Shown in pieces: positions 2,321-31,306 of a DNA stretch of 34,532 nt; positions within the stretch are counted from its first letter, which is position 1, and each line of letters begins with the position of its first letter. The DNA lies in NCBI GenBank assembly GCA_009783445.1, contig WRFY01000102.1:1-34532 (forward strand), read 5' to 3'. The translations under genes were made by a program, and so were the position numbers. The notes beneath the pieces are model-generated. The model was not told where the DNA came from. It was given only the letters and a program-made list of their open reading frames with translations, and did not search any database. This DNA comes from Candidatus Azobacteroides sp. Lineage in GTDB: Bacteria; Bacteroidota; Bacteroidia; Bacteroidales; Azobacteroidaceae.

Positions 2321-2962
2321 ATGGAGAAAATCGTAATTATTGGTGGCGGAAGTTTTTTGGGAAATATGATCAATTATATAGAGAGTATGAATGCCTATGA
2401 TATAGTGGGTTATACGGACATTGTCGATAATGGAACTGTCTTATATGTAAAATATATAGGGGATGATTCTGTTTTATTAGACCTCTATAACGAAGGAGTT
2501 ACAAATGCAGCCATTGCGGTTGGCAATAATCTGAATAATACAGTTGTAAAACAAAGGATTGCACGTAATGCAAAAAAAATAGGTTTTTCATTACCTGTTA
2601 TAAAAGGACAGAATGTTATAATCCATAAAGGAGTAAATATTGGAGAAGGGACAATTATAAGGGATGCTGCTATTATACAGAGCAACTGCAACATAGGAAA
2701 TTACATAATGATTGGAGATAATTGTGTAATATCACATGATACTTCAATAGGAGATTTTACACAGGTCGTCTCCGGATGCGTTATAGGTAAAGGATGCAAA
2801 ATCGGGAATAATATTTTTGTGGGATTCTCATCAGTAGTAACTAATGATGTGGTAATTACAGACAATTGTATTATTGGAGCTAAAAGCTTGGTAAATAAAA
2901 ATTGCGAAATTAAAGGCAAATACTTTGGACAACCAGCAAGACTGAAAGAAAAATATGAGTAA
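2321..2962 (+). CDS. legH: LegH-like sugar N-acetyltransferase (PglD family)
   Basis: The 213-residue protein has a small N-terminal Rossmann-like domain (MEKIVIIGGGSFLG) followed by a left-handed beta-helix of hexapeptide repeats from about residue 100 to 200. H139 in VISHD sits where the catalytic base of PglD-type acetyltransferases lies. It should acetylate the new C4 amino group from acetyl-CoA to give a 2,4-diacetamido-2,4,6-trideoxy sugar. A longer frame opens at a GTG at 2303, inside the end of legC, but the ATG at 2321, four bases after the legC stop, gives the normal family start. The strongly AT-rich part of the locus begins about here. Context between legC and the synthase supports the specific LegH role. 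Confidence 0.85.
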   Translation: MEKIVIIGGGSFLGNMINYIESMNAYDIVGYTDIVDNGTVLYVKYIGDDSVLLDLYNEGVTNAAIAVGNNLNNTVVKQRIARNAKKIGFSLPVIKGQNVIIHKGVNIGEGTIIRDAAIIQSNCNIGNYIMIGDNCVISHDTSIGDFTQVVSGCVIGKGCKIGNNIFVGFSSVVTNDVVITDNCIIGAKSLVNKNCEIKGKYFGQPARLKEKYE

Positions 2963-3974
2963 AGGAGTATACATTATTGCGGAAATAGGGCCCAATCATA
3001 ATGGAAATAGTGAGATAGGATTGAAAATGATAGAGGAAATTTCCACGACAGGCGTTAATGCCATAAAATTTCAATTGACCAATCCATATGCATTATATAG
3101 TATGGACTCTTTTAAAGCATCCTATCAGAAAAAAAATGATTCAGCAAAATCTCCATTGGAGATGTCTCTAAGATATCAATTGAAAAGAGAAGATCATATT
3201 AAATTGTATTCTGCATGTAAAGAATGTGGAGTTGATTATATATGTACTGCTTTTGATATTGGAAGTATGACATTTTTAGATTCTCATATTTATATGCCTT
3301 ATTTTAAAATTGCCTCCGGTGAAATATTTTCTTTAGATATCATTGATTATATTTCAAAAAGAAATAAACCGGTTATACTTTCGACAGGAATGGCAACGTA
3401 TTCTGAAATATCAGCTTCAATAGAATTAATTAATCGAAATTTTAAAAAAGATATCACCATTCTACATTGTATATCTAATTACCCTGCGAAATTTGAGGAA
3501 GTAAATCTTTTAAATATGCAGGAAATTATGGAACGGTTTAACTATTCTGTTGGTTTTTCAGATCATACCATAGGAAATGATTGTGCGATTGCAGCAGTTG
3601 CAATGGGTGCAAAAATGATTGAAAAACATGTCACTTTCAATAAAAACGCTGAAGGTCCAGACCATAAGGCTTCTATTGATATTGAAGAGTTGCGTTCTTT
3701 GGTAAATAGCATCCGAAATGTTGAGGTTGCGATAGGAGTTAGAGACAGAATATTTAGCGAACAGCAAAGAGAAATAAGCAAAGTTGCACGTAAAAGTATT
3801 GTAACAGCGTATAAAATTAATAAGGGAAATATTATAAAAGAGGAAGATATATGTTATAAACGTCCCGGAATTGGTTTTCTTCCTATTGAGAAGAATTTAA
3901 TTATTGGGAAAAAGGTTATTATTGATATTGAAGCTGATAAGATAATTAAACCTAAACATATATTATGGGAATAA
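2955..3974 (+). CDS. legI: NeuB/LegI-like N,N'-diacetyllegionaminate synthase
   Basis: This 339-residue enzyme belongs to the NeuB (sialic acid synthase) family, which condenses phosphoenolpyruvate with a 6-carbon amino sugar to make a 9-carbon nonulosonic acid. The N-terminal TIM barrel shows the family start IAEIGPNHNG (residues 8-17) and AIKFQ (36-40); the last 65 residues or so (from KVARKSIVTAYKINKG) form the SAF/antifreeze-like domain that closes the active site of the partner subunit. The neighbouring dehydratase, aminotransferase and acetyltransferase make N,N'-diacetyllegionaminic acid the likely product rather than N-acetylneuraminic acid. Pseudaminic acid is less likely because the hydrolysing epimerase next door is of LegG/NeuC type, not PseG. 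It overlaps legH by 8 bases. Confidence 0.9.
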   Translation: MSKGVYIIAEIGPNHNGNSEIGLKMIEEISTTGVNAIKFQLTNPYALYSMDSFKASYQKKNDSAKSPLEMSLRYQLKREDHIKLYSACKECGVDYICTAFDIGSMTFLDSHIYMPYFKIASGEIFSLDIIDYISKRNKPVILSTGMATYSEISASIELINRNFKKDITILHCISNYPAKFEEVNLLNMQEIMERFNYSVGFSDHTIGNDCAIAAVAMGAKMIEKHVTFNKNAEGPDHKASIDIEELRSLVNSIRNVEVAIGVRDRIFSEQQREISKVARKSIVTAYKINKGNIIKEEDICYKRPGIGFLPIEKNLIIGKKVIIDIEADKIIKPKHILWE

Positions 3975-5071
3975 AAGTTGGATTTATTACTGGTGCGAGG
4001 TCCGAATTCGGAGTAATGAAACAATTGATATTATCAATGTTATCAGATTCTGAATTTGAAGTTAAGCTATATGTTACCGGAATGCATTTATTGAAGAAAT
4101 ACGGTAGTACATATAAAGAAATTGAAAGAACTATTATTCCGATAACAAAGAAAATCCATGCATACGACGAAAAAGATAATTTAAAAATTATTGATTTTAC
4201 CAATATAGTTAATAATCTATTTTTAGTATTGCAAAGTGAAGATATAGATGTATTATATATTGTAGGAGATCGAATTGAAGCATACGGCGCAGCACTTGTT
4301 GCACATTTTTTGAATATACCTATAGCACATTATGCTGGAGGACAAATAACAGAGGGGGCTATTGATAATATTTACAGATATAATATATCCAACTTGGCGT
4401 CTATTCACTTTGTTACGTCTAAATTTGCAGCTGAGAATTTATCAAAGATACCAACAATTAACAGTAGTAATGTGCATTTGGTGGGTTCCACAGCAATTGA
4501 TTCAATATATAAATTTTTGGAAAATCCCATTGATTTAAAATCTATTGATGAACGTTTGATACCGAATGGCTATGCTTTAATGACCTTTCATCCCGCTACA
4601 AAATCAAACGAATCGATTGGGAGTATAATAATACCATGTGTTCAAGAAATATTGGATTTGGGTAAGCAAGTACTTATTACATATCCCAATAATGACAATG
4701 GAAATTCTGAAATTATTGATGCAATTGAACAATGTACCAACGATGACAATGTTTTTCTAATAAAAAATTTAGGTGTAGAAAATTATTATTGCGCAGTATA
4801 TAATTCATCCTTTGTTATAGGGAATTCAAGTAGTGGGATCATTGAGGTACCGTATTTTTCTAAATATACTATTAACATAGGAGATAGGCAAAAAGGTCGT
4901 TTAAAACCAAGATCAGTAATAGATGTTCCTTGTTCTATGGATAAAATAAAAAACACTTTAAATTCTCTTACACTTATAAATTGGATTCCCCCTAAACAGG
5001 AATATCTTTATGGTACGGGAGATAGTATTAAAAAAATTAAAGATTTATTATTGGAGTATTTTAAGAGGTGA
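3965..5071 (+). CDS. legG: NeuC/LegG-like hydrolysing nucleotide-sugar 2-epimerase
   Basis: The 368-residue protein is a member of the hydrolysing UDP-GlcNAc 2-epimerase (NeuC) family with a GT-B-like fold. Visible signatures are GARSEFGVMKQ at residues 10-20, a VGDRIEAYGAA segment, HYAGGQITEG and the GNSSSGIIEVP loop near the C-terminus. In the legionaminic pathway it removes the nucleotide and inverts C2, giving 2,4-diacetamido-2,4,6-trideoxymannose for the synthase encoded just upstream. It starts inside the end of legI (10-base overlap). In biochemical order this enzyme acts before LegI although its gene comes after. A sialic-acid NeuC role is possible from sequence alone, but the pathway context argues against it. 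Confidence 0.88.
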   Translation: MGIKVGFITGARSEFGVMKQLILSMLSDSEFEVKLYVTGMHLLKKYGSTYKEIERTIIPITKKIHAYDEKDNLKIIDFTNIVNNLFLVLQSEDIDVLYIVGDRIEAYGAALVAHFLNIPIAHYAGGQITEGAIDNIYRYNISNLASIHFVTSKFAAENLSKIPTINSSNVHLVGSTAIDSIYKFLENPIDLKSIDERLIPNGYALMTFHPATKSNESIGSIIIPCVQEILDLGKQVLITYPNNDNGNSEIIDAIEQCTNDDNVFLIKNLGVENYYCAVYNSSFVIGNSSSGIIEVPYFSKYTINIGDRQKGRLKPRSVIDVPCSMDKIKNTLNSLTLINWIPPKQEYLYGTGDSIKKIKDLLLEYFKR

Positions 5072-5074: not shown

Positions 5075-6121
5075 ATGAACACTTACGAAAAATATATAAT
5101 AAATATATCCGCTACTATTTTTGATGCATTAGTAGCTCTCGATAAATTAACAGCCGACATCTTGACTCTGTTTGTTGTTGATAATAATTACAAACTTAAA
5201 GGTACGGTGACAGATGGCGATATTAGACGAGCATTATTAAAAGGTATTACTTTAGATGATAGTATCACAACGGTTATGAATAAAAATTTTCACTATTTTA
5301 CTGCTGCTAACATTAATGTGAACCTTGTAAAGAAATGTCGGTATAATAAAATATGGCTACTACCATATTTATCAGATGATGGCGTTTTACAGAAGGTGTT
5401 CAATTTACAAAATCAAATATCTATTCTTCCGGTAGATGCTGTTTTAATGGCAGGTGGAAAAGGAGAAAGATTAAGACCTTTAACTGAAACGACCCCAAAA
5501 CCTTTACTGCCAATAGGGGATAAATGTATTATTGATTATAATGTGGACAGATTAATAAACTACGGAATTTCAAATATATTTGTTACAATAAATTATTTGA
5601 AGGAACAAATAGAAAATCACTTTAGTACTCCAAGAAATGATGTAGAAATAAAATGTATAAGGGAACCTTACTATTTAGGTACTATAGGATCTGTAAAATT
5701 CATTAACCATTTTCGAAATGACAGTATTTTGATTATGAATTCGGATTTATTTACAAATATTAATTTTGAGGAATTTTATTTGCATTTTATAGATAATAAT
5801 GCAGATATGTCTGTTGCAACAATACCATATTCAGTATCTATTCCTTATGGAATTTTCAAGTTTGAGAATCAAAGTATAAAGATAACAGGAATAGAAGAAA
5901 AACCCAAATATAATTATTACGCAAACTCAGGTATTTATTTAATTAAACGCTCTATTTTAAACTTGATTCCAGATGATATTTTTTTTGACGCAACTGATCT
6001 AATTGGTGTGTTAATTTCTAAAGGTTATAGTGTTATCCGTTTTCCCATCGTAGGATATTGGATTGATATTGGGAAATATGAAGATTATAATAAAGCTCAA
6101 GATTTTGTTAAGTATATTTAA
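5075..6121 (+). CDS. ptmE: PtmE-like sugar-1-phosphate nucleotidyltransferase with CBS domain
   Basis: Two parts are visible in 348 residues. Residues 1 to about 115 form a CBS region (FVVDNNYKLKGTVTDGDIRRA at 33-53); residues from about 120 form a nucleotidyltransferase domain with the signature MAGGKGERLRPLTETTPKP at 125-143. This architecture matches Campylobacter PtmE, which makes GDP-glucosamine for a GDP-linked legionaminic route. Its place between legG and legF suggests the same job, so the upstream Leg enzymes may act on GDP- rather than UDP-sugars. The CBS part could bind a nucleotide and control activity. No PtmF, PtmA or PgmL homologue is present; housekeeping GlmS and GlmM could supply glucosamine-1-phosphate. 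The base specificity (GTP or another NTP) cannot be read from the sequence. Confidence 0.8.
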   Translation: MNTYEKYIINISATIFDALVALDKLTADILTLFVVDNNYKLKGTVTDGDIRRALLKGITLDDSITTVMNKNFHYFTAANINVNLVKKCRYNKIWLLPYLSDDGVLQKVFNLQNQISILPVDAVLMAGGKGERLRPLTETTPKPLLPIGDKCIIDYNVDRLINYGISNIFVTINYLKEQIENHFSTPRNDVEIKCIREPYYLGTIGSVKFINHFRNDSILIMNSDLFTNINFEEFYLHFIDNNADMSVATIPYSVSIPYGIFKFENQSIKITGIEEKPKYNYYANSGIYLIKRSILNLIPDDIFFDATDLIGVLISKGYSVIRFPIVGYWIDIGKYEDYNKAQDFVKYI

Positions 6122-6129: not shown

Positions 6130-6828
6130 ATGTATAAAAACAAAAGAATATTAGCTATTATCCCTGCAAGAGGTGGTAGCAAAGGCATTCCGCATAAAAA
6201 TATAAAGGAATTGAATGGAAAGCCTTTAATTATTTACTCAATTGATATTGCTCGCCAAGTTTTTACAGATGAAAACATCTGCGTGACAACCGACGATCAA
6301 CAAATTATTGATGTGGTTGAGAATTATGGCTTACATGTGCCTTTTGTCCGTCCAGCCTATTTAGCAACAGATGAGGCAACAACTCATGATGTTTTAATGC
6401 ACGCGTTGAATTTTTACGAACAAAAAGGAATATTTTATGATATTATATTACTATTGCAACCAACCTCTCCGTTTCGTTTAAAACAACATCTTGAAGAGGC
6501 TATGGATTTATACACAGATAGTTTTGATATGATCGTTTCGGTAAAGGAAGCCTCTGCAAATCCTTATTACAACCTTTTTGAGGAGGATGAGTTTGGTCAT
6601 TTACATGTATCCAAAGGGAATGGAAAATATACTCGCCGACAGGATGCACCTACGGTATGGGAATACAACGGATCTATTTATGTGATAAATGTAAAATCAC
6701 TTAAGGGAATGAAAATGAGTGATTTCACAAGAAAGAAAAAATATTGCATGCAGGATATTTATTCAATCGATATTGATACTCCATTGGATTGGATGATTGC
6801 CGAAGAGTTTATGAAAAAATATGATTAA
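6130..6828 (+). CDS. legF: LegF/NeuA-like CMP-N,N'-diacetyllegionaminate synthetase
   Basis: This 232-residue cytidylyltransferase should activate the nonulosonic acid with CTP to give the CMP-sugar donor. The nucleotide-binding signature is IPARGGSKGIPHKNI at residues 11-25 (the GGSKGIP form), LLLQPTSPFR is at 107-116, and the C-terminal part carries the expected acidic SIDIDTPLDW segment. It completes the set legB-legC-legH-legI-legG-ptmE-legF. G+C is slightly higher than in its immediate neighbours. A 53-base gap follows before the next gene, the largest gap between position 204 and 15497, so this is a natural boundary between donor synthesis and assembly genes. Confidence 0.9.
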   Translation: MYKNKRILAIIPARGGSKGIPHKNIKELNGKPLIIYSIDIARQVFTDENICVTTDDQQIIDVVENYGLHVPFVRPAYLATDEATTHDVLMHALNFYEQKGIFYDIILLLQPTSPFRLKQHLEEAMDLYTDSFDMIVSVKEASANPYYNLFEEDEFGHLHVSKGNGKYTRRQDAPTVWEYNGSIYVINVKSLKGMKMSDFTRKKKYCMQDIYSIDIDTPLDWMIAEEFMKKYD

Positions 6829-6881: not shown

Positions 6882-8066
6882 ATGGATATTTTTAATAGAA
6901 CAATAAAATTTTTTAATTATCAAATAAATAAAAAAAATTTGGGCAGCCTCTTTTTTTCAATACAATTTGAGAAACAATATGATTATCTGTATCATTTTAG
7001 TGAGCCTGAAAATGACATTGAAAGATCATTTTATCAATATAGATGCCAATGTTTTGTTCAAGGGAAAATAAATGTATTCTTTAAAGAAATTATATCTGGT
7101 GTATTTTTTTTACCATTTATACTGTTTCTTTTGATTAAACGAATTTTAATTAAAAATAAGAGAGAAAAAATTCAAAACATTTATATTGCAACAGGTGCTA
7201 ATAATATAGACAATGAGTATCTTTCAACGAAATTTGGATCAATTAAAGATATTTATTATGCGTCTAACTACTACTTGAGTTATAGAGATTTAGTTATTAT
7301 TGCGAAGCTAATATATAGTCATCCATTTTCACCTTTTTGGTATTTCAAAAATAGCTATAAATTATCAATTTATCGATATATAATTGATAGCTATTCTCCA
7401 GAAAATATTTTGTGTTCTTCAGAATATTCTTTTACTTCATCTTTATTAACTAGTTATTGTGAAATGTTTTCGATAAGACATGTAAATGTCATGCACGGTG
7501 AAAAACTATTTTTTATAAGAGATTCTTTTTTTCATTTCCATGAATGCTTCATATGGGATAATCATTATAGACGATTATTTAATTCATTGAGAGCTTTATG
7601 TGATCAATACTACATTTTTTTGCCTAAAGAGTTTAGATTAAATAATAAAAATAATAAGAAAGTTAGTCTTGGACTTACTTATTATTTGGATTCTGAATCA
7701 AAAAAGGGATTATTAGCAATTAGAAAAACTTTATTATCAATAAACATACCCCCATCTAAAATAGCCATACGATATCATCCGCGATACAATAAGGTAAATC
7801 TAAAATTTATAAATGAAACATTTAAAGATTTTATTATTGAAAATCCTTTTTCTACATCAATTATAGAGTCTTTTTCGATAACGAAATGTGTTGCTTCTTT
7901 GTATTCAACAGTCTTATTTCAGGCATATCTATTTGGAAATAGTATTGTTATTGACGATTATAGTTGTCCTGAGAGATACAATCAATTATTAAAGATGAAT
8001 TATATAATTATGAATAAGCCACATTATAAAATATCTGATTTGTTAAGGAAAAATATTATTCTATGA
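6882..8066 (+). CDS. Unassigned protein, candidate CMP-legionaminic acid transferase
   Basis: I do not recognise this 394-residue protein as a named family. It has one hydrophobic stretch (about residues 66-88) followed by a basic segment, so it may be membrane-associated. Motifs that resemble bacterial sialyl- and polysialyltransferases of the GT-B type (GT38/GT52) are visible: an acidic HGEK at 205-208, an HP motif in AIRYHPR at 295-301, and a serine/threonine motif in ASLYST at 338-343, in the expected order. It directly follows the CMP-sugar synthetase, and neither of the other two clear glycosyltransferases in the locus (GT4, GT2) belongs to a CMP-sugar-using family. From this I infer that it transfers legionaminic acid. 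It is very AT-rich with many A and T runs, and its stop overlaps the next gene by 4 bases. It could instead be a capsule-type transferase with another donor. Confidence 0.5.
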   Translation: MDIFNRTIKFFNYQINKKNLGSLFFSIQFEKQYDYLYHFSEPENDIERSFYQYRCQCFVQGKINVFFKEIISGVFFLPFILFLLIKRILIKNKREKIQNIYIATGANNIDNEYLSTKFGSIKDIYYASNYYLSYRDLVIIAKLIYSHPFSPFWYFKNSYKLSIYRYIIDSYSPENILCSSEYSFTSSLLTSYCEMFSIRHVNVMHGEKLFFIRDSFFHFHECFIWDNHYRRLFNSLRALCDQYYIFLPKEFRLNNKNNKKVSLGLTYYLDSESKKGLLAIRKTLLSINIPPSKIAIRYHPRYNKVNLKFINETFKDFIIENPFSTSIIESFSITKCVASLYSTVLFQAYLFGNSIVIDDYSCPERYNQLLKMNYIIMNKPHYKISDLLRKNIIL

Positions 8067-9295
8067 GAATATTACATATATGTGATTACATTTCGATAAA
8101 TGAAGATCCTGAGTTTTCAAGAAATATATCAGGTTATGGATATATGGTTCTTTGCATTGCAAAATCCATTTCTGCATTACATGATATAGAGAATCTAGAT
8201 CTATTAACCTTGAATTGTTTTACAAAAGGTCGTAAAATTGATGAAGTGCAGATAGTGAAAAGAAACATTATGGATTTACTAAAAGATATTAAAATAAAAT
8301 ACATTTTTAGATCAATTGGTATGCTTCTTAGATATAGACCTAATTTTTTTTGGAGCATTAGAATATTTTTTTATTATTTGAGTTTGGGGCATGTAGAATC
8401 TATAATCAAAAATGGAAAATATGATTTAATTCATTTTCATGGTATTGATTTTTTAACAGAATCAATGATTAATTATTGCAAAAAGCATAATATGAAATTT
8501 TTAGTTACTTTGCATGGCTTATATTCTTTTCATGAAGAGACAAATGTTACTTGGCTACAAATTAAAAATGAACGTAATTTTTTAAAGAGAATAATTATTG
8601 ATGAAATACCTGTTACCGTGATTAGTACCGGCATAAAAAATGTAATTTTAAACTATTTAAATGCAAACGTCATAGATTGTATTCATATAGTCCCCAACGG
8701 GACTGATATTGAATATACAAAATATAATAACATTAATATTAGAAATTTACATAATATAAGAGAAGAAGAAAAAATAATGTTGTGTGTGGGTAATATATCC
8801 GAAAGGAAAAATCAACTACAAATAGTGCGAGCATATAGAAAACTAGAGGAGAAGATAAGAAATAAATTAATAATTTTATTTTTAGGCATTAATCACGTTA
8901 CTGATTTTGAAGTTGAAATAAAGCAAAATGGTATGAAAAATCGATTAATTTTATGTGGTAATATATCCAAAGATATATTACCGCAATATTACTCTCAAGC
9001 AAATTATACGATATTAACCAGTATATCAGAAGGATTTGGATTATCTATAATAGAAGGCTTTGTTTTTGGATTGCCTAATCTTACTTTTAGCGATCTTGCT
9101 GCTATCCCTGATATATTTGATCCTCAGGCTATGTTTTTAATAGATAATAGAGATGATGATTCTTTGACAAAGGGAATTGCTGAGTTTATTCAAATAAAGT
9201 GGGATAGTGAATATATAAAACAATATTCGCGTAACTTTTCTTTGGAAAAAATGGCAAAAAACTATAGTGATATTTATAAAAAAATCATTCAATGA
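8063..9295 (+). CDS. Glycosyltransferase family 4 (GT-B fold)
   Basis: The 410-residue protein has the two-domain layout of GT4 enzymes. The N-terminal half shows LIHFHGIDFLTESM at 122-135 and a following LVTLHGLYSFHEE; the linker has VPNGTDIE at 210-217; the C-terminal half has CVGNISERKNQ at 241-251 and the donor-binding EX7E motif with E323 and E331 (SEGFGLSIIEG). Such enzymes retain anomeric configuration and usually use UDP- or GDP-sugars at the cytoplasmic face of the membrane. The sugar it adds cannot be told from sequence. It overlaps the genes on both sides by 4 bases, so it is part of the coupled assembly block. It is among the most AT-rich stretches of the window; one sampled line (8401-8460) has 11 G/C in 60. 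Confidence 0.88.
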   Translation: MRILHICDYISINEDPEFSRNISGYGYMVLCIAKSISALHDIENLDLLTLNCFTKGRKIDEVQIVKRNIMDLLKDIKIKYIFRSIGMLLRYRPNFFWSIRIFFYYLSLGHVESIIKNGKYDLIHFHGIDFLTESMINYCKKHNMKFLVTLHGLYSFHEETNVTWLQIKNERNFLKRIIIDEIPVTVISTGIKNVILNYLNANVIDCIHIVPNGTDIEYTKYNNINIRNLHNIREEEKIMLCVGNISERKNQLQIVRAYRKLEEKIRNKLIILFLGINHVTDFEVEIKQNGMKNRLILCGNISKDILPQYYSQANYTILTSISEGFGLSIIEGFVFGLPNLTFSDLAAIPDIFDPQAMFLIDNRDDDSLTKGIAEFIQIKWDSEYIKQYSRNFSLEKMAKNYSDIYKKIIQ

Positions 9296-10518
9296 TTACC
9301 CTCTCTCATAAGAATTATTCATTTATAGATATTTTTTTCCCTTTTATTATTATTTTAGCTCCTTATTCAATATTGGGATTCAAACAAATTATCCTTACCA
9401 TTTTATTTTGTTATGCAATTTATTGCGTTTGCACAAATAGATGTAAAATGTATGTTCATAAGTATTTGTTTTTCTTTATTATAACATATACATTCATTCA
9501 ATTATTAAATATATTTCGACATCCATGGTTGCCTTTTTTCACAAATATGAACAATTTCATAATGCCATGGTTTATATTATTTATTATAAGTACGATAGCG
9601 TACAAAATCAATAAGACTAATTTATACAGAATATATTCAATCGTTGGATTTGTAGTTGCAACTACTTTATATCTTCAATCAATTGGTTTATTGATTTTTA
9701 ATATTCCTGCCAGACCAATCAATTTATTGCCAGTGTCTGCTGACGATTTTCACTTTTGGAACTATTTTCGTGGTGAAAGGCCTTCTGCATTTTTTCCAGA
9801 GCCACAAGCATATGCTTCATTTATGCTTCCTTTACTGTTTTTGACACTGAATAGAAGGAAATTTATTTATTCTACATTTATTGGGGGTTCCATTTTTTTT
9901 TCAACATCAAGTCAAGGAATTTTATTAGTTATTATTTTATTAATATTCATGTTTGTTATACATCCGAATAAATGGTATCTCAAAATTGCATATATAGCTT
10001 TTATAATAATAATCGTTGGCGCATTTTTAGTATTACCTGTTTTTAATTTTGCGTATGAGAAAATAATTAAGATTTTTAATCCTGAGTTATTAAAAGATAA
10101 TATAAGGTTAGTACGTGGGTATTTGATATATTCTACCTTCAATGCTAATGACCTTTTGCTAGGAATCGGAGATGGAAACCAACAAATGTATGTGGAGAAT
10201 AATCTTTATTTATTTTGGGATTGGGCGAAAGCTCATATCAGTGATAACGAACAGTTAATGGGATATTCTACAACTATAGCACGCATATTAATTGCAGTAG
10301 GTCCATTGCCGTTACTATTTTTTATACAAATGATATATAAAATGTATAAATATGATGATAAAATTATGAGGCCGTTATTAATAATCATACTTTTTTCTTC
10401 TTTTGCCCAAACACTACTATTTAATTCTTGGTTTTTTTTTTACTACCTGTTTTATATAGGTTATTGTGATAAAGAAAAATACGGTGAAAACTTTTATATA
10501 TTTAAAATAAAATCATAA
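9292..10518 (+). CDS. wzy: O-antigen/capsule polymerase, Wzy-like
   Basis: This 408-residue protein is strongly hydrophobic with about ten predicted membrane segments and one larger loop in the second half, the layout of Wzy polymerases and the O-antigen ligase superfamily. A typical polymerase-like segment is GERPSAFFPEPQAYASFMLP around residues 160-180. Wzy proteins are hard to tell by sequence identity, so the call relies on topology and on having exactly one such gene in a locus that also has a Wzx flippase and a probable Wzz. It would join repeat units at the outer face of the inner membrane. The gene contains T runs of 9 (9893-9901) and 10 (10432-10441) bases. Its ATG lies inside the GT4 stop, and its last base is the first base of the next gene. 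Confidence 0.75.
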   Translation: MITLSHKNYSFIDIFFPFIIILAPYSILGFKQIILTILFCYAIYCVCTNRCKMYVHKYLFFFIITYTFIQLLNIFRHPWLPFFTNMNNFIMPWFILFIISTIAYKINKTNLYRIYSIVGFVVATTLYLQSIGLLIFNIPARPINLLPVSADDFHFWNYFRGERPSAFFPEPQAYASFMLPLLFLTLNRRKFIYSTFIGGSIFFSTSSQGILLVIILLIFMFVIHPNKWYLKIAYIAFIIIIVGAFLVLPVFNFAYEKIIKIFNPELLKDNIRLVRGYLIYSTFNANDLLLGIGDGNQQMYVENNLYLFWDWAKAHISDNEQLMGYSTTIARILIAVGPLPLLFFIQMIYKMYKYDDKIMRPLLIIILFSSFAQTLLFNSWFFFYYLFYIGYCDKEKYGENFYIFKIKS

Positions 10519-11045
10519 TGAAAGGGATAAATTCATATAGGGTAACGTGTTTACGACAATTTTGCTGGGATATTATTGTCAATGGCATTATTGCATCATA
10601 TTTTTTCCCTAATTTTATAAGACTATTTTTCTATAAGTTACTCAAATTTAAAATATCAGCTACAGTTCATGCAAAATGTTATTTTGGATCCAATAAAATA
10701 AAAATAGGTAAACGTACATATATAAATAGGGGTTGCCTCTTCGATAATGAAAATGGAGCTTTCATTGAAATTGGAAATGATTGTGCCATAGGATATAATG
10801 TTTCATTTTTGACAACCAATCATGATATTACTAATCATAATAGGAGAGGTGGAAAAGTGATCTCTAAAAAGATATGTATAAAAGATGGGTGTTGGATAGG
10901 GGCTAACTCAATTATATTGCCTGGTGTTACGGTTGAAGAAGGATGTGTTATTGGTGCAGGTTCAATAGTAACAAAAAATACGGAAAGTAACTGCATCTAT
11001 TTAGGTATCCCATCTAGAAAATATAAAAATATTACTTTTTCATGA
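10518..11045 (+). CDS. Hexapeptide-repeat acyltransferase (WcaF/maltose O-acetyltransferase type)
   Basis: The 175-residue protein starts with about 45 residues containing a hydrophobic, aromatic segment and continues as a left-handed beta-helix made of hexapeptide repeats up to the C-terminus (for example IKIGKRTYI, CWIGANSIILPGVTV, CVIGAGSIV). H102 in TTNHD is the catalytic histidine position of this family. It probably O- or N-acetylates a sugar in the repeat unit. Its exact acceptor is unknown, and it is distinct from LegH, which has an extra Rossmann-like domain. Start and stop codons overlap both neighbouring genes. Confidence 0.85.
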   Translation: MKGINSYRVTCLRQFCWDIIVNGIIASYFFPNFIRLFFYKLLKFKISATVHAKCYFGSNKIKIGKRTYINRGCLFDNENGAFIEIGNDCAIGYNVSFLTTNHDITNHNRRGGKVISKKICIKDGCWIGANSIILPGVTVEEGCVIGAGSIVTKNTESNCIYLGIPSRKYKNITFS

Positions 11046-12142
11046 AAATTGGATTGATTACAACACATTACGCTATTAATTACGGCGCAGCATTACAAGC
11101 GTATGCTCTATATAAAGAGTTAGAAAAATTTGGCAGGAGTGAAATTGTGAATATTGTTATTAATACTGCAGTCAGTGGTAGAAAGATAAATTATAAAATA
11201 GATTCTATCCATAATATCTTATTAAGTTGCTTTACTTTATTTAATTTTAAATATCGTAAACAATTTTACGAAAAAATCAGATTATTTGATCGGTTTATAA
11301 AAACAAAATGTAAGCTTTCGAGTGAAATTTATACATCATATGATGATGTTAGACAGCGACTTCCTTTTTATGATTATTTAGTATGCGGTAGCGATCAGAT
11401 ATGGAATTTGAACCTATTACAAAATCCTATTTTCTTTTTACGTTTTGAAGATATATATCCCAATACTAAGTATATTGCTTATGCCCCAAGTGTAGCGGAA
11501 AAACTTACAAAAGAACAATATAACATATTGGCTGAAAATATAAAACATTTTTCGGCAATATCAGTAAGGGAAAAAGAAGGAGTGGACGAAGTGCAAAAAT
11601 GCACGAATAAAATTGTAAAGAATGTGCTAGATCCTGTATTTCTACTTGAAGCTAAGGATTGGGAATTAATTATGGAACCGGTAGAAGATATAAAGGTACC
11701 TTATATTCTATTATATACGATAGCAGGGAACAAGGAATATACGAGAGTTGTTAACATAATTCGTAAAATATATCCATATCTTGTTGTTTGTATCAGTACC
11801 CATGCATATAATAAGTTTAATGCTGATATGTGTATCTACGATACGTCTCCGGAGAATTTTTTGTGGTTAATACGAAATGCAGAATTTGTGTGTACGAGCT
11901 CTTTTCATGCTACAGCCTTTTCAATAATATTTGAAAAACAATTTATTGCTATTCCGGACAAAAGAAGAAGTTCTAGGCACGAATCGTTGTTACAACAATT
12001 AGGTATTGAAAATAGATTAGTATTTCACTCTAAAGATATTAAATCAATTGATCACTTGGGAATTGATTTTATTTCTGTTAGAGAAAATTTAGTAAGATTA
12101 AGGCAAGAATCCATTAATTTTTTAAAAGAGTCATTATGTTAG
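11042..12142 (+). CDS. Polysaccharide pyruvyl transferase family protein
   Basis: The 366-residue protein carries the typical features of the polysaccharide pyruvyl transferase family: an N-terminal NYGAALQAYAL at residues 13-23, CGSDQIWN at 115-122, YAPSVA in the middle, and SSFHATAFSI around 286-295 with H289. Known members add pyruvate as a ketal to sugars using phosphoenolpyruvate, but many members in capsule loci have no proven reaction. Here the gene overlaps by 7 bases with an iron-sulfur protein resembling the F420 hydrogenase beta subunit. This pairing recurs in bacterial polysaccharide loci, so the two probably work together. The function is therefore firm as a family call and open as a reaction. 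Confidence 0.85.
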   Translation: MKIGLITTHYAINYGAALQAYALYKELEKFGRSEIVNIVINTAVSGRKINYKIDSIHNILLSCFTLFNFKYRKQFYEKIRLFDRFIKTKCKLSSEIYTSYDDVRQRLPFYDYLVCGSDQIWNLNLLQNPIFFLRFEDIYPNTKYIAYAPSVAEKLTKEQYNILAENIKHFSAISVREKEGVDEVQKCTNKIVKNVLDPVFLLEAKDWELIMEPVEDIKVPYILLYTIAGNKEYTRVVNIIRKIYPYLVVCISTHAYNKFNADMCIYDTSPENFLWLIRNAEFVCTSSFHATAFSIIFEKQFIAIPDKRRSSRHESLLQQLGIENRLVFHSKDIKSIDHLGIDFISVRENLVRLRQESINFLKESLC

Positions 12143-13266
12143 CAGATAAGTATTCTTGTACAGGGTGTGCTGCTTGTTTTGATGCGTGTAAATTTTCTTC
12201 CATAAACATGGAGTATGAAGAAGGTTTTCTATATCCATTGATAGATAAAACTAAATGCACAAAATGTATGTTATGTACTAAGGTTTGTCCAATTTTGAAT
12301 AAACAAAATTTTAATAATGATAATATTCAAAAAACTTATATAAGTTGGAATAAAAATAAAAAACAAAGGAAGAGATCGTCTTCAGGAGGACTATTCCCTG
12401 CCTTTTCAAAGTACTTTATCGACAATGGAGGTATAGTTATAGGAGCAGGATATGATGAAAATATGCACTTGAAACATAAATGGACTGATAACCAAAACGG
12501 TTTAAAATGTTTTTCCGGATCAAAATATTTACAAAGCGATACCAAAGGAATATATTTTCAAACTAAGCAATTTTTGGATAAAGGAAAATTAGTTTTTTTT
12601 AGTGGTGTCCCTTGTCAAATATTAGGATTATTCAGTTATCTCGGAAACAACTATGATAACTTATTTGCATGTGAGGTTTTCTGCCATGGAGTACCATCTC
12701 CCGAAATATTCAAGGATTATATATCGTATTTGGAGAAGGATGGGAATAAGATAATTGGATTCGATTTCAGAAGTAAAATATTAACATGGTCAAAACCATG
12801 CGTAAAATTATCTTATAAAGGACGATTGCCTAAATATACACTTTTTAGCATGTGTAATTTTATAACATGGTTTGGATTACATCTCTCAGTAAGGGAGTCC
12901 TGTTTTAATTGTCCATGTAGAACATTGAAAAGAAATGCTGATCTAAGTATAGGTGATTTTTGGGGTATAGAAGATGTTGATGCTTCATTAAAAAGACGTA
13001 ATGGCATATCTGCTTTAATCATAAATTCGAAAAAAGGGGATTTTTTATTTGAACAAATATCTGAAAACTTATTCTTTAAAAAATGCACATTAAATCAGAT
13101 TATTAAGAAAAATAAATGGCTAATTGCAAATTACGATCATCCCATAGAACGAGAAAAGTTTTTTCATACTTGGAAAGAACAAGGTATAACAGGACTTATA
13201 AAAAGATATCCTAGTGCTAAAATTAGTTCAAAACTAATAAATAGGCTAAAAAGCTTTATTCAGTGA
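12136..13266 (+). CDS. Iron-sulfur protein related to coenzyme F420 hydrogenase/dehydrogenase beta subunit
   Basis: The first 55 residues of this 376-residue protein form a double 4Fe-4S ferredoxin domain: C8, C11, C14, C18 and C41, C44, C47, C51. The remainder resembles the FrhB/FpoF-type domain; a third cysteine group is CFNCPC with C256, C259 and C261, followed by SIGDFWG. FrhB-type proteins bind flavin and pass electrons. Coenzyme F420 is not expected in Bacteroidota, so the natural electron partner here is likely something else. Its start overlaps the pyruvyl-transferase gene and its stop overlaps the flippase gene, so it is embedded in the assembly operon. A role in redox modification of a sugar or lipid-linked intermediate is an inference only. 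Confidence 0.85.
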   Translation: MLADKYSCTGCAACFDACKFSSINMEYEEGFLYPLIDKTKCTKCMLCTKVCPILNKQNFNNDNIQKTYISWNKNKKQRKRSSSGGLFPAFSKYFIDNGGIVIGAGYDENMHLKHKWTDNQNGLKCFSGSKYLQSDTKGIYFQTKQFLDKGKLVFFSGVPCQILGLFSYLGNNYDNLFACEVFCHGVPSPEIFKDYISYLEKDGNKIIGFDFRSKILTWSKPCVKLSYKGRLPKYTLFSMCNFITWFGLHLSVRESCFNCPCRTLKRNADLSIGDFWGIEDVDASLKRRNGISALIINSKKGDFLFEQISENLFFKKCTLNQIIKKNKWLIANYDHPIEREKFFHTWKEQGITGLIKRYPSAKISSKLINRLKSFIQ

Positions 13267-14675
13267 GGATTCAGAAATCACTATCAAATGCCATTATCTA
13301 TTCTGGAATGTTATTTTTGCAAAAAGCAATTTCATTTCTAATGTTGCCTGTTTATACAGCCATCCTTTCTCCAGGAGAATTAGGCATTGTTAATATGGTG
13401 GTGTCTATTGGTTCTTTCTTCATTTTGTTATTCAACTATGCTTTAGACGAAGCTGCAGTTAGGTTTTATTTTGAAAATAGAACTAACATTTATCTTTCAA
13501 AAAAAATTGTAGGTACAATTGTATGCTTAAGTCTATTAATATGCAGTATAGGAGGAGTAACTCTTTTTCTCTTTAAGGATTTCATATATAAATATTTTAT
13601 CCCTGATATAAGTTTAGGATTAATTATATTAAGCATTATAATTGTTATAACATCACCAATATTTAGTATTCACCAAAAACTATTACGTATAAAAGAAAGA
13701 GCTAAGGAGTATGTCATTTCATCTTTTTCATATTCTATGATGCAAATTACTTTTACTTTAATATTTGTAATGGGACTAGGGATGAGTTCTTTTGGTTATC
13801 TGCTTGCAATGACTATTACTTCTTTTATTGCATTTGTCTGTTCTCTGTTCTTTATAAGGAAAGATGTGAAATTTGTGATCGAAAATAAAATGGCTATTGC
13901 AGCTTTAAAATATTCTACACCAATAGTTCCTCATACTATTTCATCATGGGGATTGTCTAATTTTACTCAAGTATTCTTAGGTCGAATGAAATCTAGTATA
14001 ACTGTTGGTGTTTTTACTGCTATGAGTTTTTCTGGAACGATAGTTCAAGTTTTATTTATGTCTTTGATTAATACTTGGCAACCTTGGTTATATGCTAAAA
14101 TGGACAACCATGATTATCTTTCAATTAAAAAACTATCAAAAGTAATATTACTTATATTTATTACGGTAGGATTTTTACTTTCGCTCTTTTCTAAAGAAAT
14201 CGCAATGTTGGTCATAAATTCTCGATATCATTCGAGTATAATAATCGTTCCTTTTATTATAGTAAGTAACCTATTTATGGTTGTGGGAGGATTATATGTT
14301 TTTGTACTGTATTATGAAAAAGCGAGTACAAAATATATATTCTATTCAACGTTAGCTGGAGTAATTGTAAATATTTTACTTAGTATTATTTTGATTCCTG
14401 TGTATGGTATTTTAGGTGCCACTATTGCGATAGCTATAGCTAATTTGATTATAAGTTTATTAAGGCAAGTAACAGTTTCAAAAATTTTGAAGCAACAAGT
14501 TTATACATTCGATATTTATTTGATTATTTTACTTAATTTATTAGCCTCCGTTTTTGCTATAAAACTGGACTTTTCTTTCTTGTTTAAATCATATATGTTA
14601 TTAGTTGACACTTTCATAATTATATTCTTATATAAAAATCTATTAAAATCATATATAAATAAATCTTTTAATTGA
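13263..14675 (+). CDS. wzx: Lipid-linked oligosaccharide flippase, Wzx-like
   Basis: This 470-residue integral membrane protein of the polysaccharide transporter branch of the MOP superfamily has roughly 12-14 membrane segments spread over its whole length. The N-terminus (AIIYSGMLFLQKAISFLMLP) and the LGATIAIAIANLI segment late in the protein are typical. It would flip the undecaprenyl-linked repeat unit across the inner membrane. The start is a GTG at 13263 within the stop of the previous gene (4-base overlap); no ATG gives a better start, and this one keeps the first helix intact. It pairs logically with the Wzy-like polymerase and the probable Wzz. Confidence 0.88.
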   Translation: MRIQKSLSNAIIYSGMLFLQKAISFLMLPVYTAILSPGELGIVNMVVSIGSFFILLFNYALDEAAVRFYFENRTNIYLSKKIVGTIVCLSLLICSIGGVTLFLFKDFIYKYFIPDISLGLIILSIIIVITSPIFSIHQKLLRIKERAKEYVISSFSYSMMQITFTLIFVMGLGMSSFGYLLAMTITSFIAFVCSLFFIRKDVKFVIENKMAIAALKYSTPIVPHTISSWGLSNFTQVFLGRMKSSITVGVFTAMSFSGTIVQVLFMSLINTWQPWLYAKMDNHDYLSIKKLSKVILLIFITVGFLLSLFSKEIAMLVINSRYHSSIIIVPFIIVSNLFMVVGGLYVFVLYYEKASTKYIFYSTLAGVIVNILLSIILIPVYGILGATIAIAIANLIISLLRQVTVSKILKQQVYTFDIYLIILLNLLASVFAIKLDFSFLFKSYMLLVDTFIIIFLYKNLLKSYINKSFN

Positions 14676-14684: not shown

Positions 14685-15497
14685 ATGGATAAAAAATTGG
14701 CTGTAATAATGTCTATATATAAGAATGACAAATTACAGTATGTAACTCGGTCAATTAATAGTATATTGGAGCAAACATATTCAGACTTTGACTTTTATAT
14801 TCAAATAGATGGAATAATAAGTGCTGAGGTGGAAAATTATTTAGATAATATAAAAGATACGAGATTAATTCTCTATAAAAGGGATGTTAATAAGGGATTA
14901 GCATCCTCTTTAAATGAATTGCTAAGCAGAGTACTTATATATAGTTATTCGTATATTGCAAGGATGGATGCTGATGATGAATCTCTCTCTATGCGTTTTG
15001 AAAAGCAAATAAATTATTTTAAAGAACATGAAGATATAGATTGTTTGGGTACTTGGGCTATCGAAATAAATTATCGTGGTGAAGAATATTATAAAAAAAA
15101 GATGCCATTAAGCCATGAAGACTGTTTTTTCTTTTTTAAAAAACGAGATTGTTTAATTCATCCTACAGTTATGTTTAAACGTTCTTACTTCGAAAAAGCA
15201 GGACTATATCCTGAAGATACTTATTTTGGAGAAGATACTATGATGTGGCTAAAGGGGTTCAAAAATAATTGTAGATTTTCAAATATACCAGATTATCTTT
15301 TTAAATTTCGTGTGGACGAAGACTTTTTTAAACGTAGACGGGGTTGGAAGCATGCAAAATCGATATTTAAACTTAGGTATAAAGTTAATAAAGCTTTGAA
15401 TTATGGAATAATAGCCTATCTTTATTCATTATTATATGCATGCATGAAAATAATGCCAACTAATGTTATGAATTTTATATATAAAACTATTAGATAA
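14685..15497 (+). CDS. Glycosyltransferase family 2 (GT-A fold)
   Basis: The 270-residue protein begins with the nucleotide-binding strand of GT2 enzymes (LAVIMSIYKNDKLQYVTRSI), and its metal-binding DXD motif is DAD at residues 95-97 in IARMDADDES. It resembles AmsE/WcaA-type capsule transferases, which usually invert and use a UDP-sugar. It starts nine bases after the flippase stop. It is the last gene of the AT-rich block: the 72 bases after it separate it from the initiating transferase, where base composition begins to change. Donor and acceptor are unknown. Confidence 0.87.
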   Translation: MDKKLAVIMSIYKNDKLQYVTRSINSILEQTYSDFDFYIQIDGIISAEVENYLDNIKDTRLILYKRDVNKGLASSLNELLSRVLIYSYSYIARMDADDESLSMRFEKQINYFKEHEDIDCLGTWAIEINYRGEEYYKKKMPLSHEDCFFFFKKRDCLIHPTVMFKRSYFEKAGLYPEDTYFGEDTMMWLKGFKNNCRFSNIPDYLFKFRVDEDFFKRRRGWKHAKSIFKLRYKVNKALNYGIIAYLYSLLYACMKIMPTNVMNFIYKTIR

Positions 15498-15569: not shown

Positions 15570-16196
15570 ATGGGAAAAGTAGCTAAAATAATAAAGAGAA
15601 AACGATTTATGTTCCGTTTCTTTGATGTCTTTTTCTCCTTTTTCGGCCTCATCTTATTATCTCCTATATTTTTCATTATTGCCATATGTATTGTTTGCGA
15701 CAGCAAAGGAAGAGTATTTTACAAACAAACGCGTGTAGGGAAAGACGGAATTGATTTCAAACTATACAAATTCAGAACAATGACTGTCGGTTCCGATAAA
15801 GGTAGTTTAATAACCATAGGTGCACGCGACAGTCGAATCACTAAAGTAGGTTATTTTTTACGCAAATATAAATTAGACGAGCTTCCGCAACTGATCAATG
15901 TTTTGCTTGGCAACATGAGTTTGGTTGGACCCCGTCCAGAGGTTCGAAAATATGTTGATTTATATGACGACGACCAACGAAAAGTGTTGCAAATACGTCC
16001 CGGAATTACGGATTATGCATCGATCCATTACAAAAATGAAAATGAATTGTTAGCGAATGTGGCTGATCCGGATAAAATGTATATTGAACAGATACTTCCT
16101 CAAAAGATAAATTATAATATGCCTTACATCAATAACTATACTTTAGTAGAATATTTCAAGATTATTTTTTTAACATTTTGGAAAATTTTTAAATAA
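15570..16196 (+). CDS. Initiating sugar-phosphate transferase (PglC/WcfS/WcaJ catalytic domain type)
   Basis: This 208-residue monotopic phosphoglycosyltransferase has a single N-terminal membrane segment (about residues 16-43) and the catalytic domain only. Signature elements are YKFRTM at 66-71, the catalytic DE pair D103-E104 in LDELPQL, and MSLVGPRPE at 116-124. It should load the first sugar phosphate onto undecaprenyl phosphate. The next two genes encode an aminotransferase and a 4,6-dehydratase, so the primer sugar is probably an acetamido-amino-trideoxyhexose: AATGal, as made by the WcfR/WcfS system of Bacteroides fragilis, or a bacillosamine-type sugar, as used by PglC. The 72-base gap upstream is the second longest inside the locus and could hold an internal promoter, but I see no clear match. 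Confidence 0.9.
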
Positions 16197-27813: not shown

Positions 27814-30800
27814 ATGAAGAAACTATTGTTCATTGCCTTATTCGGCTTTATGTATATGGTAGAAGGCCGTATTTATGCACAAAATTATACTGAGTTTTTA
27901 AATAGACAGGCAAGCGTTCCCATTCCCAGCCCGAACGTGGCTGCGTTGAATAAATTTGTAGAATTTCCAGTCAATCATTTCAATGGGCAGGTAGATGTAT
28001 CGTTTCCGTTGTATGAAATAAAATTAAAAAATGTCAGCATACCCATTCGATTGAAATACAACACAAGCGGACTTAAGGTCAGTGAAGAGGCCAGCTGGGT
28101 CGGTCTGGGTTGGGCTTTGGATGCCGGCGGAGTGATCTATCACCAAGTAAATGGGAGAGATGATATTATCAATAAAAATTTGTACGACGATTACGGCTAT
28201 TATTTACCTTATGTAAACAAAGTCGATAATGAAACGTACGATATAAATAAAAATTTAGGAGGGGTCTCTTTGTCCGGAGCAAAAATTCCGAATAAAAACG
28301 GACAAATGGAAGATATTGTCGACCGATTCACAAATAACTATTATAAAATTAATGGCGAACCGGACGTATATATTTACAGCATGGGCAACTATTCGGGTAA
28401 ATTTATCAATTGGGACAAGAACAATACGGGGGTTGATCTCAGTTGCAACAATATGATTTTTAAGCAATATATGGGAACTACTGCTGCGGGAGACAGTATT
28501 ATTGCGACGGATCCGGATGGAAATATATACCGATTTAAAAATATTGAGACGAGTATTTCATCAAGAAGCAGCGATAAGACTACTTCAGCCTATTATCTTA
28601 GCGAGATTGTATCGCCGAATAAAGAAAACATTAAATTTTCTTATAAAACATTCAAACAGCTAATAAATGATAACCGGTGGGAAACTTCTTTCACGGGCGA
28701 TACGCAGGGTCATGGTTTGAATGACGGATATTTTCCTTCCATTCCCTCTTTATGGGAAGAATGTTCAGCTACGTATCAAATGCTCAACAGCGGTAGTTCT
28801 GTTTCTTCTTCCAGTAGCGCTCTCCAGGTAAGTACGGTTCGATTGGGAGCCTATTCTTTTACCAATGCACTGTATTTGGATAAGATTGAATTCCCCAATG
28901 GAACGATAGAATTTGTAAAAAGTCCGCGATTAGATGCCTTTGGGTTGAAGTTGGATAAAATCAACATCAAAAACGCCAATAATCAATTAATAAAAACATA
29001 CGAATTTCAATACAACTATTTTGAAAGTACAACCCCTGCTAACGGACAGGATGTAAGTACTGCTACTTCCACCACGGGGTCTACCAAGAATTATCCTGCA
29101 GATTATTTGAAAAAACGTTTGAAATTAGTATCCTTTTCAGAAGGAAATTACAGTAGCGGGCAAATCTACAGTTTCACTTACAATGAAAGCGAAAAATTGC
29201 CTTATAAAACTTCTTTTTCCCAAGATTTTTGGGGTTATTACAACAAGCAAGGCAATACTACTTTAATTCCAAGTTATGCTTTATATGCTTCTGCATTAGG
29301 AATGCCGGATGGATTCGGCGGCGGAGCTTTAGGAACTTTAACAACGGCGAAAAGAAATGTAGACGTAAATGCGGTAAAAGCATTTATGTTGAAAGAAATA
29401 ACACATCCGACCAAAGGAAAAACGGCTTTCACTTTTGAAGCCAATACATGTTCAAACTCATTTATTGCTTCTAATGAAATTGTTACAAAACGTTTTTCGG
29501 CGACCGATATAGGAACCGGTTATGCACGGACCTCTTTTACATTCAACGAAAAAAAGACGGTGGATATAACGGTGAATTTGTTTTTGGGATCTAACTTGAA
29601 ATATTCTACAGTATTGACGCAAAGGTTGGGATCGCCATACGAATATCCGAATGAGTTTTATGCAGTCGTAGAAAGATTGGACAAAACAAGCAATCAATGG
29701 ATACTTTTTGATCTCAAATATTGTTGGGGTGGAAATTCATGGAGTAGTTACAACACCAATAATTATACAGGATGGGCTAAGGGAGTTACATTTGACCCCG
29801 GAACTTACCGGCTTACAGCCAACCTACCGGATCCATGGGCGCAATATGGAGGTTTAGGATCGACCATGGCAGATATTAATTTATCGTATGATACGCTTGT
29901 TTACACTACATCTAATTACGTAGGCGGGCTAAGGATCAAACAAATAATCCGTACGGATGTGACGACAAATAAAAGTATGACCACCAACTACACTTACGCA
30001 CAGGGTATATTGGCAACGCGTCCCATATTTATGTACAGTATGATAACGGAATTACCTCCGAATGGCGCTATTACTTGTCCGGGAAATGGCGTCAAATACG
30101 TTCTTGCCGCTACTCCAGCCTATCCCTATTCCTTTTCTGCCAATGGAAATCTGGTAGGTTATCAGCGCGTTACTGAAACGTATTCCAATGGCGAAATAGG
30201 GCATATAGACTACAATTATATGATGAACAATGATGTGTTAAGTTTGGGGGCCTATTGTCCGCAGGGAACTCCTTTCACTCCAAAATTGACCAATGGTTTT
30301 CTGCAGTCAAAAATAGTTTATAATAATCAAAATTTGTATATTGATAGAAAAACATACGAGTACGCAATTGTAAATGCTAAAGTTTATTGGGGATTCAAAG
30401 TCGATTCATGGGCGGCAATTATGCCGTGTGGAGTAACGGTCCCTTCTTACCATGACGTTATGGCTTCTCATATGAAAGTTTACTTCTACCCCATCGTTCA
30501 AGGAAAATTGCTAACCAAACAGGAAGAGGAAGAAGATTACAGTTCGGGACAAATTCCGCCGTTGCAAAGAAAAACAGAATACGAGTACAATGCTTATTGC
30601 CAATTGGTCGCGAAAAAGATAGACAACAGCGTTTACGGTAAAGTGATCGAAACCTATAAATATGTACCCGAAAAAGCCGCAGAATCGGGAGGAGTCTATA
30701 CGCAAATGAAAAATTTGAATATCCTCTCGCCTTTGATTGAAACGCAGACGGATCAGAGCGGTGCGGTGACCAAGCAGATTACAAATTATTCCCAACCATA

Positions 30801-31287
30801 TACCAATGTTTTTACGCCTTCTAATTTTCAGTTAGGGTTTGGAAGCAGCGCCACCGCGCCTGAAACACGCATTACCTTCGATAAGTACGATAAATACGGC
30901 AACCCCAACAGCATCAATAAGGACAACGCCGGCAGCGTTATCTATCTGTGGAGTTACAATGGATTGTATCCGGTAGCTGAAATTCGAAATTCGGATTACG
31001 CAACGGTGAATGCGGCCTTGTCGACCGTAGGTTTGGGTTCCATAGAGTCCTTAGCGGCCAATGCCAATCCGGATAAGGCTAAATTAGACAATTTGCGGGA
31101 TGTGAGTACGCTGGCCAACGCCCATATCACGACTTGCAAATATTCCCTTCTGGTAGGTATTTTGGAAGTCACGGCTCCCAACAGGATTACTACCTATTAT
31201 GAATATGATGCTTTCAATCGGTTGAAAACCGTTAAAGAAGGAAATAAGAAAACGCTTGAAGATTACGAATACCACTATAAGAATTGA
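27814..31287 (+). CDS. Exported RHS/SpvB-like repeat protein
   Basis: This 1157-residue protein begins with a signal peptide (MKKLLFIALFGFMYMVEG, likely cut after YAQ at residue 23). A region typical of large Bacteroidota RHS proteins follows: FPVNHFNGQVDVSFPLYEIK (51-70) and SWVGLGWALDAGG (94-106). The middle is a long beta-rich region, and the C-terminal quarter has YD-type repeats (EYEYNAYCQLVAKK, FDKYDKYGNP, YYEYDAFNRLKTV). It ends in YEYHYKN and has no T9SS sorting domain and no evident toxin domain of its own. RHS proteins form beta cocoons that enclose C-terminal effectors. It is first in a run of three exported-protein genes; a palindrome and -7-like element precede it. Its stop codon is formed within the first unit of a GAATTGA tandem repeat. 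Confidence 0.8.
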   Translation: MKKLLFIALFGFMYMVEGRIYAQNYTEFLNRQASVPIPSPNVAALNKFVEFPVNHFNGQVDVSFPLYEIKLKNVSIPIRLKYNTSGLKVSEEASWVGLGWALDAGGVIYHQVNGRDDIINKNLYDDYGYYLPYVNKVDNETYDINKNLGGVSLSGAKIPNKNGQMEDIVDRFTNNYYKINGEPDVYIYSMGNYSGKFINWDKNNTGVDLSCNNMIFKQYMGTTAAGDSIIATDPDGNIYRFKNIETSISSRSSDKTTSAYYLSEIVSPNKENIKFSYKTFKQLINDNRWETSFTGDTQGHGLNDGYFPSIPSLWEECSATYQMLNSGSSVSSSSSALQVSTVRLGAYSFTNALYLDKIEFPNGTIEFVKSPRLDAFGLKLDKINIKNANNQLIKTYEFQYNYFESTTPANGQDVSTATSTTGSTKNYPADYLKKRLKLVSFSEGNYSSGQIYSFTYNESEKLPYKTSFSQDFWGYYNKQGNTTLIPSYALYASALGMPDGFGGGALGTLTTAKRNVDVNAVKAFMLKEITHPTKGKTAFTFEANTCSNSFIASNEIVTKRFSATDIGTGYARTSFTFNEKKTVDITVNLFLGSNLKYSTVLTQRLGSPYEYPNEFYAVVERLDKTSNQWILFDLKYCWGGNSWSSYNTNNYTGWAKGVTFDPGTYRLTANLPDPWAQYGGLGSTMADINLSYDTLVYTTSNYVGGLRIKQIIRTDVTTNKSMTTNYTYAQGILATRPIFMYSMITELPPNGAITCPGNGVKYVLAATPAYPYSFSANGNLVGYQRVTETYSNGEIGHIDYNYMMNNDVLSLGAYCPQGTPFTPKLTNGFLQSKIVYNNQNLYIDRKTYEYAIVNAKVYWGFKVDSWAAIMPCGVTVPSYHDVMASHMKVYFYPIVQGKLLTKQEEEEDYSSGQIPPLQRKTEYEYNAYCQLVAKKIDNSVYGKVIETYKYVPEKAAESGGVYTQMKNLNILSPLIETQTDQSGAVTKQITNYSQPYTNVFTPSNFQLGFGSSATAPETRITFDKYDKYGNPNSINKDNAGSVIYLWSYNGLYPVAEIRNSDYATVNAALSTVGLGSIESLAANANPDKAKLDNLRDVSTLANAHITTCKYSLLVGILEVTAPNRITTYYEYDAFNRLKTVKEGNKKTLEDYEYHYKN

Positions 31288-31306
31288 GAATTGAGAATTG
31301 AGAATT
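31281..31306 (+). repeat. GAATTGA heptamer tandem repeat, about 3.7 units
   Basis: GAATTGA occurs three times in a row (31281-31301), followed by a partial GAATT. The RHS gene stop codon TGA is at 31285-31287, inside the first unit, so loss or gain of later units would not change the RHS protein. The repeat lies 15 bases before the ATG of the next gene and could alter spacing between the two genes. Confidence 0.8.

Follow-up and report, generated by a model that had tools for sequence, protein, structure and literature searches.

The open reading frame at positions 6882-8066 of the plus strand probably encodes an inverting, membrane-associated GT-B glycosyltransferase that transfers legionaminic acid (Leg) from CMP-Leg to a lipid-linked oligosaccharide, and we assign this reading a probability of about 0.84. 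Positions refer to the window, which is the whole 34,532-nucleotide stretch of DNA analyzed here. Translation of the frame gives a protein of 394 residues that closes with a stop codon, and the strand opposite carries many stops. The assignment as a candidate CMP-Leg transferase draws on this frame, an AlphaFold2 model, a fold match to glycosyltransferase family GT38, and genetic linkage to the nonulosonate synthase gene neuB. Leg, a bacterial relative of sialic acid, occurs in many bacterial surface glycans, and few dedicated Leg transferases are known. Those named in the literature consulted comprise Maf4 (putative), TFUB4_00887 of Tannerella forsythia, and promiscuous sialyltransferases.

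The seven genes upstream of the candidate, all on the plus strand, constitute a complete GDP-type CMP-legionaminate pathway. They encode the nucleotide-sugar 4,6-dehydratase LegB (195-1181; TIGR04180, 500 bits, above cut-off), the aminotransferase LegC (1174-2316; TIGR04181, 568 bits, above cut-off), a LegH-type (NeuD/PglD-like) acetyltransferase with PglD_N and hexapeptide repeats (2303-2962; TIGR03570, 132 bits, below cut-off), the nonulosonate synthase LegI/NeuB (2955-3974; PF03102, 272 bits), the hydrolysing 2-epimerase LegG/NeuC (3965-5071; TIGR03568, 318 bits, above cut-off), a PtmE-type nucleotidyltransferase with a CBS domain for activated-sugar supply (5075-6121; PF00483 and CBS), and the CMP-legionaminate synthetase LegF (6130-6828; PF02348, 84 bits). 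The LegI/NeuB gene is the single strong neuB match of the genome, and LegF is its only clear CMP-nonulosonate synthetase, the one other match being weak and partial. Leg is taken as the donor here because it is the only nonulosonate that the genome appears able to make.

A gap of 54 bp separates legF from the candidate, whose 3' end overlaps by 4 bp the gene for a GT4 glycosyltransferase (8063-9295, +; PF00534). Further downstream follow genes for a Wzy-like polymerase (9292-10518, +; PF04932, E 2.5e-4, below cut-off), a hexapeptide acyltransferase, a PF04230 protein (polysaccharide pyruvyl transferase; 11042-12142), an FrhB-like protein, a Wzx flippase (13263-14675, +; PF01943, 71 bits), a GT2 glycosyltransferase (14685-15497, +; PF00535, 58 bits), a PglC-like initiating sugar-phosphate transferase (15570-16196, +; PF02397, 196 bits), an aminotransferase, and an FlmA-like dehydratase. 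An earlier note on this DNA had listed only GT4 and GT2 transferases for the locus; both are present, but the PglC-like enzyme makes the list incomplete. The GC content is 25-32% over about 2.4-15.6 kb, against 40-47% for most sequence beyond 18 kb, and this low value suggests a horizontally acquired polysaccharide island. Within it, the PF04230 gene and the following gene for an FrhB/FdhB-like iron-sulphur protein (together 11042-13266) form a pair that recurs in many loci of the candidate's family (L095, L098, L102-L106). Elsewhere in the window, two adjacent frames at 27814-31287 (1157 aa) and 31291-32469 (392 aa) have no Pfam match at 1e-5, and their identification as the type IX secretion proteins PorU/PorV was dropped for that reason.

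Structure prediction points to a GT-B fold. The AlphaFold2 model, built with 22 sequences, reached a pLDDT of 88.8 and a pTM of 0.86, and the first two Foldseek ranks were taken by 5wcn and 5wc6, both of the GT38 polysialyltransferase of Mannheimia haemolytica (MhPST). Against MhPST, VIA-align gave Z 15.8 over 271-273 residues, covering residues 88-391 of the model. The next folds were those of UDP-GlcNAc 2-epimerases (Z 12.4) and TagF (Z 11.1). The earlier expectation of a GT-B fold, as opposed to an unrelated one, is thus borne out by a confident model whose nearest solved structure is that of a sialic-acid-polymerising enzyme. A TagF-like phosphotransferase, or another GT-B enzyme with a different activated substrate, would also fit parts of this picture: GT-B folds are alike, the epimerases and TagF reach Z 11-12, TagF and TarL rank high in the Foldseek results, and TagF too has an active-site histidine (H444N structures are among the matches). 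Such an identity is nevertheless very improbable, given that the polysialyltransferase is ahead by 3-5 Z units, that the genetic linkage is to CMP-nonulosonate genes, and that R-x-HP is a CMP-ulosonate signature (PMC12887879).

Relatives of the candidate emerged from profile-based rather than single-sequence searches. The latter, run with the 394-residue protein, recovered none in plasmids, phages, viral contigs, genome contigs, 100 relatives, or 395 genomes of the class, and weak matches (L002-L007) were rejected as unrelated frames, for example, a NusB-like protein and transporters. The Pfam match DUF6249 (E 0.038) was put down to chance similarity in a short hydrophobic stretch, and a PDB sequence-profile search yielded nothing beyond chance hits, one a viral polymerase and the other an adhesin. 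The earlier statement that the protein matches no known family holds at the sequence level for Pfam, NCBIfam, PHROGs, and PDB. To extend the comparison, frames were taken from the legB loci of 393 same-order genomes and searched, which yielded two clear relatives with 35-38% identity. A GTDB-wide profile scan with the three-sequence alignment returned 22 loci; they belong to Bacteroidota, to Bacillota, with Streptococcus suis 10581 among them, and to one MAG each of Chlorobi and Bdellovibrio. Run against the 393 genomes of the order, the enlarged alignment recovered four strong members and a further two that are very distant, and the relatives of the candidate number about 24 in total.

Two members deserve separate mention. 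The one in Phocaeicola paurosaccharolyticus JCM 15092 (L115:9935-11084) lies in two overlapping frames, which indicates either a broken gene or a draft-assembly error. The S. suis 10581 member (L099) and its counterpart in a Lachnospiraceae MAG (L098) are almost identical, which suggests that distant Bacillota recently exchanged the locus.

The family has no model in Pfam, NCBIfam, or PHROGs, and its newness is judged against these three libraries. The closest approaches are sub-threshold. PF07388 (A-2_8-polyST) matched five of the 24 members, with a best E of 2.1e-4 and a best score of 21.4 bits against a cut-off of 23.3, obtained for a relative; TIGR04326 (surface carbohydrate biosynthesis protein) showed weak similarity to four of the 24 (best E 8.6e-4). 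Neither model matched the candidate itself, and when a single PF07388 protein from Bacteroidia (L132) was compared at the profile level by hhalign, the score was not significant. The candidate likewise has no match to GT52 (PF07922), and a whole-genome search with PF07922 found none, although that model matched nothing in the control genomes either. Structures of GT52 and GT80 were absent among the 50 structural matches listed, and some relationship to these families may exist. A literature search located no characterised enzyme of the family, nor anything on the S. suis 10581 locus or on the placement of the family in CAZy. At the level of sequence families, the earlier description of a new branch of nonulosonate transferases is therefore a fair one.

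Conservation within the family points to residues that may form a CMP-binding active site. The motifs to which the earlier note had drawn attention, HGEK (205-208), HP (299-300), and LYST (340-343), are found at these positions in the translation. Among the 24 aligned relatives, H205, G206, R297, H299, and P300 are invariant, as are E181 and D358; E207 is retained in 23/24, K208 in 22/24, and R301 in 20/24, and positions 342 and 343 each hold S or T in 24/24. In the CDP site of MhPST, cytosine is bound by K289 and P292, ribose by E323, and phosphate by H291, S339, and T340; K293 matters for activity, and E153 serves as the base. The candidate residues R297, H299, P300, R301, S342, and T343 follow the same order and a similar spacing as K289, H291, P292, K293, S339, and T340, with 43 residues from H to S in the candidate and 48 in MhPST. 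Sialyltransferase families share the (K/R)xHP motif with retaining Kdo transferases (PMC12887879, 2026), and together with its conservation and the MhPST match this marks RYHPR (residues 297-301; 7770-7784, +) as the predicted CMP-binding motif. On similar grounds, namely conservation and the counterpart S339/T340, YST (residues 341-343; 7902-7910, +) is predicted to contribute a phosphate-binding S/T pair.

The likeness to GT38 covers RxHP-R and the S/T pair; HGEK is not itself the D/E-D/E-G motif of GT38. No literal D/E-D/E-G motif is conserved in the family alignment, and MHG (204-206) or E181 could fill its role. Candidates for the catalytic base are H205 within HGEK (7494-7505, +), on account of its conservation, and E181 (7422-7424, +), on account of its presence in 24/24 relatives and the secondary structure of the model. 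Retaining Kdo enzymes also need a QxxxD motif. Across residues 227-357, no Asp is common to all 24 relatives, and because the QxxxD nucleophile is missing, an inverting reaction is the one predicted.

The motif combination does not appear to be a chance occurrence. The pattern HG...[KR]xHP...[ST][ST] with the candidate's spacing was sought in 476 frames (300-520 aa) of 56 leg-locus stretches and turned up in four, two of them true and two distant relatives of the candidate, against none in reversed sequences. A further shared trait lies towards the N terminus. The Kyte-Doolittle 19-residue maximum of the candidate, 2.21, falls at residues 70-88 (7089-7145, +), the second best being 1.23, and a hydrophobic stretch occupies this position in 24/24 relatives (maxima 1.29-3.19). 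This hydrophobic helix with its invariant proline (P78) probably serves membrane attachment and fits an enzyme acting on a lipid-linked acceptor at the membrane.

Genomic context ties the family to nonulosonate synthesis. We considered 25 distinct family loci, each counted once (the window, L050, L113, L094-L112, L114, L115, and L122). In 21 of them, neuB lies within 20 kb, and the count is 18 of 22 once three loci that came from the leg searches are left out; for L100, L103, and L107, neuB was found with extra flank (about 17, 12.5, and 14 kb). Of the other four, L105 and L106 carry a CMP-sugar synthetase at a distance of about 11-14 kb, but their assemblies lack neuB; the contig of L096 spans just 5 kb, and in L094 neuB is placed on a different contig. 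L105 (with L123) and L106 (with L125) are rumen Bacteroidales MAGs. As a control, the surface-polysaccharide family PF04230 was surveyed in 99 genomes of the order, where, with the window's own gene left out, 2 of 35 genes lay within 20 kb of neuB. The Fisher p values of 3e-10 (21/25 vs 2/35) and 4e-9 (18/22 vs 2/35) serve as a guide only, since the control represents one order with fragmented assemblies. As the reading in the earlier note requires, the homologues are thus mostly in CMP-nonulosonate loci, with neuB in 21/25 and a CMP-sugar synthetase only in two more.

The control bears equally on the idea that Leg is moved by the GT4 protein (8063-9295) or the PF04230 protein (11042-12142) and that the candidate does something else. 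Both genes belong to the operon and neither has an assigned substrate; however, PF04230 genes neighbor neuB in just the 2/35 control cases, the GT4 protein has no profile similarity to the candidate family, and this division of labor is highly unlikely. Roughly half of the loci (L050, L094-L096, L098, L100, L102-L108) have a relative of the window's GT4 on the same stretch, often adjacent, from which one might guess that the sugar handled by GT4 adjoins Leg.

Linkage is closest where a member directly adjoins the CMP synthetase gene, as in the window, L113, and L112. The same arrangement appears in the very distant relatives L126 and L127, which were found by sequence alone and sit directly after a CMP-nonulosonate synthetase-type gene, with a 314-bp gap in L126, whose locus has a NeuB-type gene, and a 7-bp overlap in L127. 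By hhalign, L126 aligns with the family at probability 97 and E 9e-11 over 218 columns, pairing QHG with MHG, KLHP with RYHP, and YST with YST.

Not every locus indicates the same donor. Several Bacillota loci contain neuA/B/C without legB, and in loci such as L098, L099, and L104 bacillosamine-type genes accompany neuA/B/C, again without legB; members in such loci may use Neu5Ac, or else Leg from a UDP route. Such loci, including that of S. suis 10581 (L099), and the two with a CMP-sugar synthetase and no neuB (L105, L106), would suit a family of general CMP-ulosonate transferases that draw, in the window or in other loci, on Neu5Ac, Kdo, or another CMP-sugar rather than on Leg. For the window this is an unlikely reading, as the whole Leg set lies immediately upstream together with the only strong neuB of the genome. 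Dedication to Leg, rather than to Neu5Ac or another CMP-sugar, may not extend to the whole family, and the donor of other members may differ.

For the candidate, Leg transfer remains the preferred reading, and a sequence of events can be proposed. The products of the seven genes directly preceding the candidate would make CMP-Leg, and the candidate, docked on the membrane through helix 70-88, would attach Leg to an undecaprenyl-linked oligosaccharide before Wzx flipping and Wzy polymerisation of the repeat unit. R297, P300, and H299 would hold CMP by its cytosine and phosphate, the catalytic base would be H205 or E181, and the reaction would invert configuration at C2. On balance, we also lean towards viewing the members as a glycosyltransferase family of their own, marked by a membrane-docking N-terminal part and an HGEK active-site motif and dedicated to legionaminic and related acids in Wzx/Wzy-type polysaccharides of Bacteroidota and Bacillota, including the capsule-type locus of S. 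suis 10581. A recognizable cross-phylum family of about two dozen members offers concrete genes for assay, makes it easier to predict from a genome that surface sugars contain nonulosonates, and could be a source of enzymes for the production of Leg glycosides.

Comparison with known systems places the candidate among, yet apart from, enzymes that use CMP-ulosonates. It resembles the retaining Kdo and Pse transferases of GT99, GT107, GT118, and GT140 in its predicted GT-B fold and in the HP motif, which binds CMP in those enzymes (PMC12887879), whereas the QxxxD of the retaining Kdo families GT99, GT107, and GT140 is not conserved in the candidate family. Within Bacteroidota, the nearest functional precedents are GtfS and TFUB4_00887 of T. 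forsythia, which were shown by knockout to be Pse and Leg-derivative transferases acting on a surface glycan (PMC6388019). They share with the candidate the phylum of origin and a reported HP motif, but they measure 445 and 442 aa and are reported to carry D/E-D/E-G and DXD motifs, a separation that follows published descriptions only (PMC6388019). Three proteins of 445-468 aa with QHG, KxHP, and ST motifs, encoded in leg or Pse-type loci (L075:6936-8273, -; L126:7581-8987; L068:2818-4191, -), may be GtfS-type nonulosonate transferases of Bacteroidota; those of L126 and L075 are related to each other (E 6e-61). The nearest structural counterpart is the GT38 enzyme MhPST (5wc6/5wcn), with which the candidate shares the predicted GT-B fold, the order of (K/R)-x-H-P-(K/R) and S-T, and the expected use of a CMP-nonulosonate donor. 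The two differ in that identity is 13%, MHGEK stands in place of a literal D/E-D/E-G, and the candidate has a helical N-terminal part of ~90 residues that includes the hydrophobic helix and lies outside the structural match. Unlike MhPST, moreover, the candidate belongs to Wzx/Wzy-type loci and would be expected to add a single residue rather than to polymerise.
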